The notes beneath the pieces were generated by a model, which made no database searches, was not told where the DNA came from, and worked only from the letters and a program-made list of their open reading frames with translations. 64,000 bases of DNA. Source: Lepisosteus oculatus. Its lineage: Eukaryota > Chordata > Actinopteri > Semionotiformes > Lepisosteidae. The translations under genes were made by a program, and so were the position numbers. This document shows positions 29,501 through 32,500 of the stretch, one piece after another. The first letter of the stretch is position 1, and each line of letters starts with the position of its first letter. The stretch lies in assembly GCF_040954835.1 (NCBI RefSeq), contig NC_090698.1:28573501-28637500 (forward strand). The letters are read 5' to 3'.

Positions 29501-32500
29501 ATGCAACAGTTTGACTGTGGTGTCACCTTCAGATGGGTGAAGGAGAGAGGAAGAGAGCAGAAGAATTAATTAAAGGGATAGGGAGGGCGAGATATGAGTA
29601 GTAGAGAAGATGAAAATGGAACTAACAAGTTGGATATCTAGGTGATGAAATCTTGTGTAAGTATGGAAGACGGCAGTCTATAAATGCTGGGACAATATGT
29701 GAACCAATTTAAAGTTTAAGTTTGTCTTGTGATCCCCATCTTCTTTAAACCTTTGTGAACTGACAAAAAAAGATTGGAAAACTCATGCTTGAAAGAGGTG
29801 AAATGTTGAACTGTTGGCTTTGCCAAATTTTGTCACTGCTGTGATAGCTGTATATGTACATACACGGATATATGGTGGTAAGGCTACAAGTATTTTTGAC
29901 AATGTACATTTTCCTTTGCTGTACATTGACTAACTGTGGGGGAAAAGACATCTTACCTTGATTTTTTACTTTTGTTACTGTTCGTGCACCATTTTTTCTG
30001 TATAAAGTAATTTTAAAGTTCCCAAACCTCTTCAAACTACAATGTGTCCACTGAACTGGTAGTATGCTGAAGAGCTGCACATTCCCTGTAGAGGGAGACA
30101 TTGCTTTATGTTTCTTACGAGGCTTTCCATACTCTTATTACTACTGATAATAGAGAAATAAAAGCAAAAATAAAACGTCTCAAATGCCACTTTAAAAGTT
30201 GAAAGACAATTTCTGTTTTTGCCTTTACTTTAGTTAAATGGAGGGGAAGAATAGTTGAGAATAGGCGTGTACTTGTGGAGGATAAGCGGATAATACAGAG
30301 AGTGATATAAACAAAAATGTTGATTTCCACATGACTCTAGAAACATTCACAATAGGCACTTGGATTTATTTTCACAGAGCTGCTTTGTGGAGACTATGAC
30401 TGCTTCCTTATTGCGGCTCAGAAAACCATCTGCTCAGCTGTCATATTTATAGAAACGATGCTAGGAAACACACTTTTGTATTGCTTGAGCACACAAAGAA
30501 AAAAAATCAGTTGACTAATAGCTTAAAGAATGACTTCACCATCATAACTGATGGGAGGAAATCATGTTCAGCTTCTGCATTAAAAGTAACATTTTCTGCA
30601 GTGTTAGTGTAACATTGACACAGACTCAGCACTTGTGATTCTCATAATACTACAATGCACTATAGCACCCCTTGACCTGGAAAATCAGTCCCTTAAGACA
30701 TCAGTTTGTAAAGATTTGGAACATATACTGTAAGTTATGATCACTTTACTAAGTTAAATCAGTATCCAGGTACTGCAGTGGCACAGTGGTTAGCATTGCT
30801 GACTTGCAGCATTGAGGCCCTTGGTTCAGTTCCTGGGCTGCTATCTGCTTGGAGTTTATATGTTCTCCCCATGTTCGTGTGGCTCTCCTCCGGGTGCTTC
30901 AGTTTCCTCCCACTGCCCAAAGACATACTTAATTGGCTTCTGGGAAAATTGACTCTGGTGTGAGTGTCATGTCTGCCTTGCGACCCGTTTGCTTGCCAGG
31001 ATAGGTTTTGACTCCCTTACAACCCTGAATTGGAAGAAGTGGTTAGAAAATGGATAGATGCATTAAGTCAGTAACGGTCAGCTTTGGTGCTTTGAGAACT
31101 TGGGGCATGTATATATTTTTTTACATCTCTTAATTACATAATTGCACAAATAGCAACATTGTTCCAAGTGTTTAGAAGCTGACGATTTGAGGGTGACTAT
31201 AAAACCCACTGGATTGTGGCTCTCCAGGACCAGAACTGATTATTTCTGCACTAAAGACTCTTCACCTGGAAGGGAAAGTCAGTGGTGAAGTTTCACAGTT
31301 CTATATTATCCATTAGAAGGGATTTGTGTGCTTGAAGTGCACATAAAATTAAGTTTCAAATTATTTTTGTACATATGTTACTTATACCATTTTGTGTATT
31401 TGGGCTTGAATGTCTTTTAAATGAAAGTGTTTGTTTGGAGATGGTGGCATGGTATTTTTTTTCCATGTTTTTCCTCAAATTAATTTGGTCTTCAGCAGGG
31501 CCATGTGAAGAATGTGTGTCACATACACTGTGCGTGCTTTAGCCATACCAGTTAGTCTAGCCTTGAGATACTCAAATGTACTGTCTCTGCTTTAGATTTT
31601 TCCATAGCAGCTGTCTCACATCCTCACCTTGCAGCTTGTTGCTATATTAGTATCGGGTGTAGTAAGCTGCCAAATTAAAGGTACTTTTTCGCCCTCCCCT
31701 TTGGGCCTAATTCCTGTCTCGAGTTGCCAGGGAAACGGAGGCCAGCGATTGGCAGAAAGTTCAGGAGCGGATTTGTGCCATTGGTTGATACTGATGCCTT
31801 GATAAAAATAGACGAGAAGGCTGCCTAACCTTGTAATTTACATTCAAAGGCTTTAAGACATGGACGGAACCCAAGTTACTACAACTTATTAGATTTGATT
31901 TAAAATATATATAGAATGACACTTATCAGGTATTTTCTAACAGAATTCTAATATTGGGTGTTTTTCAAGCATGGTATCTATCAAAGAATACGTGATAGAT
32001 GATTTCAGAGAAAGCATGTACCAGCACTATAAGGCTATTGAAGAAGTCTTTGAAGAGCACCATTTATATGCAGCTTTTCATCATTCTTCAGAAAAAGCTT
32101 ACTTTTTTAAACAAGGTAGGTAATGCACTAAAATCTTGTGGCATGTTTTTTTTACATATTCTTCAATTTTCAAAGTGATAATTACAATAAGGCAAGTCTA
32201 GTGAAGTACACTACATATGACCGCTAAACCTGAGTGGAGGATTTGTTACCATCTCTACATTGGAAACCTTTACAACATACTTGTCCGTGTGAAAGTGCTT
32301 TTTTTGCATTCCTCTTGTAGGTCCTTTTCCACTATTCAGTTTTGCTTGGGATGCACATCATCTCACAGCAGAATGTATTGTCTGGGAATGCAGCTGTTAA
32401 AATAAAAATAAAAAATTGGAAATGTGTATTACTGTAAAATATAGATATCTAAAATAATATAGAGAAACACTTGTTTGACAAGTGGTATGTATGCTCTTCG

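Follow-up and report, generated by a model that had tools for sequence, protein, structure and literature searches.

An exon-like open segment in the SH3-to-BH intron of gar PIK3R1 is probably a chance reading frame

The gene PIK3R1 produces its p85alpha, p55alpha and p50alpha forms from separate first exons, and in the gar Lepisosteus oculatus the long intron between its SH3 and BH exons raises the question of whether a fourth such exon lies there. The window that we analysed, a stretch of 64,000 nucleotides of this 1.2-Gb genome, carries PIK3R1, whose exons a tblastn search with human p85alpha places in their proper order between 11209 and 51944 (Table 1), and the SH3-to-BH intron occupies 11540-37272 (25,733 bases). 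The SH3 exon joined to exon 3 and onward yields an intact p85alpha model of 724 amino acids, whose closest record among the best 120 of 2246 matches is the L. oculatus p85alpha, 99% identical; the record has two extra insertions, one of 4 residues and one of 1 residue, and agrees with the model at every other position. Both insertions sit at exon starts, where splicing may have used a different acceptor. The window contains all three known first exons, and each ends in phase 1, the phase that the preliminary description of this DNA gave for them. That of p50alpha reads ATGCATAACTTGCAAA followed by the donor GTAAGT, only 16 coding bases being kept in gar, and in the translated match to it the last base and the donor GT are read as Ser. 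No stretch of the window is richer in CpG than 7601-8350, which begins the gene's upstream side 3-4 kb ahead of the coding exon of p85alpha and is probably the main promoter with the untranslated first exon. Downstream of PIK3R1, on the - strand at 57000-57800, open-frame pieces resemble by eye a relic of a Tc1/mariner-type transposase.

Table 1. Positions in the window of the PIK3R1 exons, the candidate segment and the elements next to it
Feature	Position	Strand	Details	Basis
p85alpha start codon and SH3 exon	11209..11539	+	331 nt, phase 1	tblastn, exon join, Pfam SH3
Possible promoter stretch	31571..31870	+	GC 0.45, 8 CpG, two ATTGG (inverted CCAAT)	composition, motif scan
In-frame TAA upstream of the candidate ATG	31938..31940	+	33 bases upstream	read from sequence
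Candidate first exon	31971..32115	+	48 codons and one base, donor AAG/GTAGGT	sequence features; putative as an exon
Exon 3, leading into the BH domain	37273..37359	+	phase-1 acceptor, would-be partner of the candidate	tblastn, exon join
p50alpha first exon	45197..45212	+	MHNLQ and A, then GTAAGT; 16 nt coding, phase 1	
p55alpha first exon	46897..47002	+	106 nt coding, phase 1; 63% identity to human over 35 aa	
Shared 3' exons: SH2, inter-SH2, SH2, to the stop codon	48345..51944	+		tblastn, exon join, Pfam

What the preliminary description had said about the letters of its proposed fourth exon held in every particular. The ATG stands at 31971 in the context TCAAGC-ATG-G, and thus in a strong start context with A at -3 and G at +4, an in-frame stop lies where it was said to lie, and the segment is open for exactly 145 nt up to a phase-1 donor, with 32115 as the last exon base and GTAGGT from 32116. 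Joined at 37273 to exon 3 and onward, it reads through, with zero internal stops, to a protein of 662 residues. The 48 new residues, described as often aromatic or acidic with five tyrosines, comprise 5 Tyr, 5 Phe, 7 Glu and 2 Asp. The open frame itself spans 60 amino acids, the next in-frame stop (32121-32123) falling just past the donor. If such an exon were used, nature would supply a p85alpha with the BH domain but no SH3, and hence a test of the contribution of SH3; none of the p85, p55 and p50 forms is known to have this combination. If it is unused, the locus shows instructively how easily a large vertebrate intron can come to contain a convincing first exon by chance alone.

How readily this happens depends strongly on what is counted. 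On the two strands of the non-coding window, 158 open segments of 48 codons begin with an ATG (a number of them are nested), such that the open frame on its own is ordinary and counts for a chance reading. The donor counts against it: with a donor matrix, it scores 5.73, compared with -0.5 to 8.7 for the 14 real PIK3R1 donors and 3.39 for that of the p55 exon, and only 19 of the 4203 GT dinucleotides on the + strand score at least as high, 7 of these being real donors. The candidate alone, on both strands of the non-coding window, joins a good start context to a donor of at least its own score, which likewise counts against chance; when any ATG is allowed at the same donor threshold, one further segment appears, on the reverse strand. 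From 300 first-order Markov simulations, between 0.013 (strict context) and 0.06 (any ATG) such segments would be expected in this intron. A genomic control of 20 stretches, 200 kb of the same genome searched on both strands with coding sequence left in, gave a good context with phase 1 once, or 0.064 per 25.7 kb of one strand, and none with the strict start context at the candidate's thresholds. These strict thresholds, however, are the candidate's own values, set after the fact, and they flatter it, which is why we state its rarity as uncommon, yet not improbable. With loosened criteria (any ATG, at least 100 nt, a donor score of at least 4, phase 1), the 200-kb control gave 12 segments, or 0.77 per 25.7 kb of one strand, which counts for chance, and the SH3-to-BH intron itself has two, the candidate and 33448-33547. 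For a reader seeking the best case in 64 kb, the candidate is thus uncommon but not improbable, and it becomes unremarkable once the thresholds are loosened.

The codon usage of the segment is ambiguous. Scored with human codon frequencies, the candidate reaches -0.24 per codon, a value that 90 of the 158 non-coding controls equal or exceed and that counts for chance; the known PIK3R1 exons range from -0.28 to 0.55, with the p55 exon at -0.02. Under a second codon model, trained on the PIK3R1 locus plus human frequencies with the known exons left out in turn, it scores -0.06, the best of its three frames, and only 17 of the 158 controls reach that score, which counts against chance (known exons, -0.26 to 0.44; p55 exon, 0.17). 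At 48 codons such tests have little power, and some true exons score low too.

The sequence upstream of the candidate is suggestive, but no more than that, of a possible promoter in the vicinity of 31,571-31,870. Taken over the 100-400 bases before the segment, the GC content and the number of CpG are the same figures as those of the p55 exon, which counts against chance; an equally high CpG count precedes 13 of 149 control ATGs, an equally high GC content 36 of 149, and 8 CpG in 300 bases is reached by 5.3% of intron windows. Two ATTGG boxes lie at 31748 and 31780, 32 bases apart, and the window contains 13 other close ATTGG/CCAAT pairs; TATA-like words are frequent, with 72 on its + strand. 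The 14 real acceptors of the gene score from -0.5 to 11.4, and an AG that resembles them, before 31731, reaches 5.4, so that the segment might have a spliced origin further upstream. The two AG sites nearest the candidate ATG, with scores of 0.1 and -5.6, do no better than the weakest real acceptors or fall short of them.

Homology was sought at the level of protein and of DNA. In a protein set clustered at 90% identity, residues 1-48 of the 662-residue query were unmatched (one candidate, none at E<=1), and a 60-residue query found no protein sharing three 5-residue words with it, proteins of about 106-363 residues lying outside the length ranges of both searches. Because the set is clustered at 90%, a 662-residue isoform could hide behind the p85alpha of its own species, and this negative is weak. 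A p85alpha query gave 2246 matches at E<=0.001 in the same set, the best 120 of which include the p85alpha of gar, bowfin, sturgeon and bichir; the p85alpha start peptide occurs near the N-terminus in all 120, and the 5-residue words of the candidate occur in none of them. The p85alpha isoform X2 of the bowfin Amia ocellicauda, with 707 residues, has lost a 20-residue piece (YSKEYIEKF...EIQR) from the inter-SH2 coiled coil, which binds p110. Within the gar genome, matches to the inter-SH2 family fall in three places, on C3, which also carries the window, on C9 and on C32. The C32 locus we take, by its SH3 and BH exons, to be PIK3R2, and the C9 locus, covered to 10 kb upstream of its SH2 exons, looks like PIK3R3. 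A counterpart of the candidate in the SH3-to-BH intron of gar PIK3R2 was considered and rejected; the best match there is 29% identical, with no donor at its end, and is not significant, since 34 of 200 shuffled queries reach its score, which counts for chance.

The DNA itself is unique. In a search that skips very common words, the 301 bases around the candidate were located at a single genomic site, and neither the 200 kb of control DNA nor the rest of the window contains anything that matches 31061-33200 at E<=1e-3, which counts against chance; the candidate therefore lacks the multiple genomic copies of a transposable element or repeat. No known RNA family was found near it in Rfam, the nearest being a 5S-like match 3.6 kb away. 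This match, to the 5S rRNA family (RF00001, 40.9 bits), lies at 28274-28392 in the PIK3R1 intron, and the enclosing stretch 28270-28816, which recurs in control DNA, looks like a 5S-derived SINE.

Curated families gave nothing in the 48 residues (no Pfam at E<=1, no NCBIfam at E<=10), which counts for chance. A homology to calsequestrin or other thioredoxin-like proteins was dismissed as a chance one, since the best PDB match, to calsequestrin, has an E of 0.26 when the whole sequence is the query and of 2.6 when the stretch alone is, with no Pfam match. An amphipathic helix in the candidate was likewise set aside (p about 0.06-0.11 against shuffles). A single-sequence structure model predicts two helices with a mean pLDDT of 81. 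A control intronic frame, 22157-22300, which overlaps a repeat, is modelled as a long helix as well (mean pLDDT 69); since this sole control is helical too, we reject the predicted structure as evidence of a real protein segment.

Taken together, the description of the sequence was right, the indirect tests of exon use are split, and we lean to chance. The features of the sequence, its single genomic match and the base rates were observed directly; that the segment goes unused as an exon is inferred. It is probably an open reading frame that arose by chance in unique intron DNA and that runs up to a sequence which resembles a good 5' splice site but is not used as one. Its ATG would have come by a good context by chance, one of the about a dozen + strand donor-like sites this strong outside known exons (the candidate included) would have fallen at the end of its frame, and one donor in three would be of phase 1 in any case; the resemblance to a first exon would follow from these three circumstances. 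A quite improbable alternative is that another functional element is at work here and the frame is incidental, be it a promoter or an enhancer within the intron, at about 31,600-31,900, or else a cryptic exon spliced from untranslated exon 1. The local rise in CpG, the spacing of the ATTGG boxes and the acceptor-like site before 31731 would be consistent with such an element, but the window has other close ATTGG/CCAAT pairs and the AG sites nearest the ATG are poor acceptors.

It is possible, if rather doubtful, that the segment is instead a real alternative first exon, one that probably occurs in gars or holosteans alone and in only a few of their tissues. Transcription would then start from a promoter at about 31,600-31,870, with this exon spliced to exon 3, and the resulting p85alpha would be without SH3 and the first proline-rich stretch, would keep BH, both SH2 domains and the inter-SH2 coiled coil, and might lose SH3-dependent contacts while retaining BH-dependent ones. 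The joint rarity of context, length and donor argues for such an exon, as do the upstream composition equal to that of the p55 exon, the locus-trained codon score with its best-of-three frame, the phase shared with all three known first exons and the fact that PIK3R1 already employs alternative ones. However, no homologous protein was found in the 90%-clustered set, the score with human codons is non-coding-like and falls mid-range among the controls, and the PIK3R2 intron is without a significant match. The full form of this proposal, which we consider unlikely, is that of a fourth, holostean-specific PIK3R1 first exon that would yield an SH3-less, BH-containing p85alpha of 662 residues, such that SH3-dependent and BH-dependent (PTEN, small GTPase, homodimer) functions would be split by promoter choice; its N-terminus would be helical, acidic and tyrosine-bearing. 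Chance remains the reading that we prefer.

The preliminary description knew of no classical isoform with this start, and we met none in the accessible parts of the literature on PIK3R1 isoforms and promoters. NM_181524 is presumably the p55 form. Those parts of the first-exon, promoter, start-site and isoform literature, including PMC10320754, name no first exon that lies after the SH3 exon and before those of BH. PMC12203861 treats alternative starts and an isoform 3 promoter, PMC2262154 three variants with an alternative promoter in intron 6, and PMC6143958 a promoter 2 equated with NM_181524; PMC5480877 lists Pik3r1 among genes with a rod start site, whose place is not given there. A review, PMC12243862, connects the SH3-BH region with the protection of PTEN and with how strongly AKT signals.

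Set beside the known first exons of the gene, the candidate differs from those of p55alpha and p50alpha in both place and consequence, since these are found in the intron that precedes the first SH2 domain and remove SH3 together with BH, whereas the candidate, being upstream of the BH exons, would cost the protein SH3 alone. They are also recognisable between human and gar, in contrast to the candidate, for which no relative was found in the 90%-clustered protein set. The p85alpha exon, for its part, encodes SH3 and a proline-rich stretch, whereas the candidate encodes 48 residues without a domain match; the two nevertheless have the same splice partner, exon 3, and the same phase 1. With the p55alpha and p50alpha exons, in turn, the candidate has in common that it is a short ATG-bearing segment in a PIK3R1 intron with a phase-1 donor, and with that of p55alpha it shares an identical GC content and number of CpG 100-400 bases upstream.
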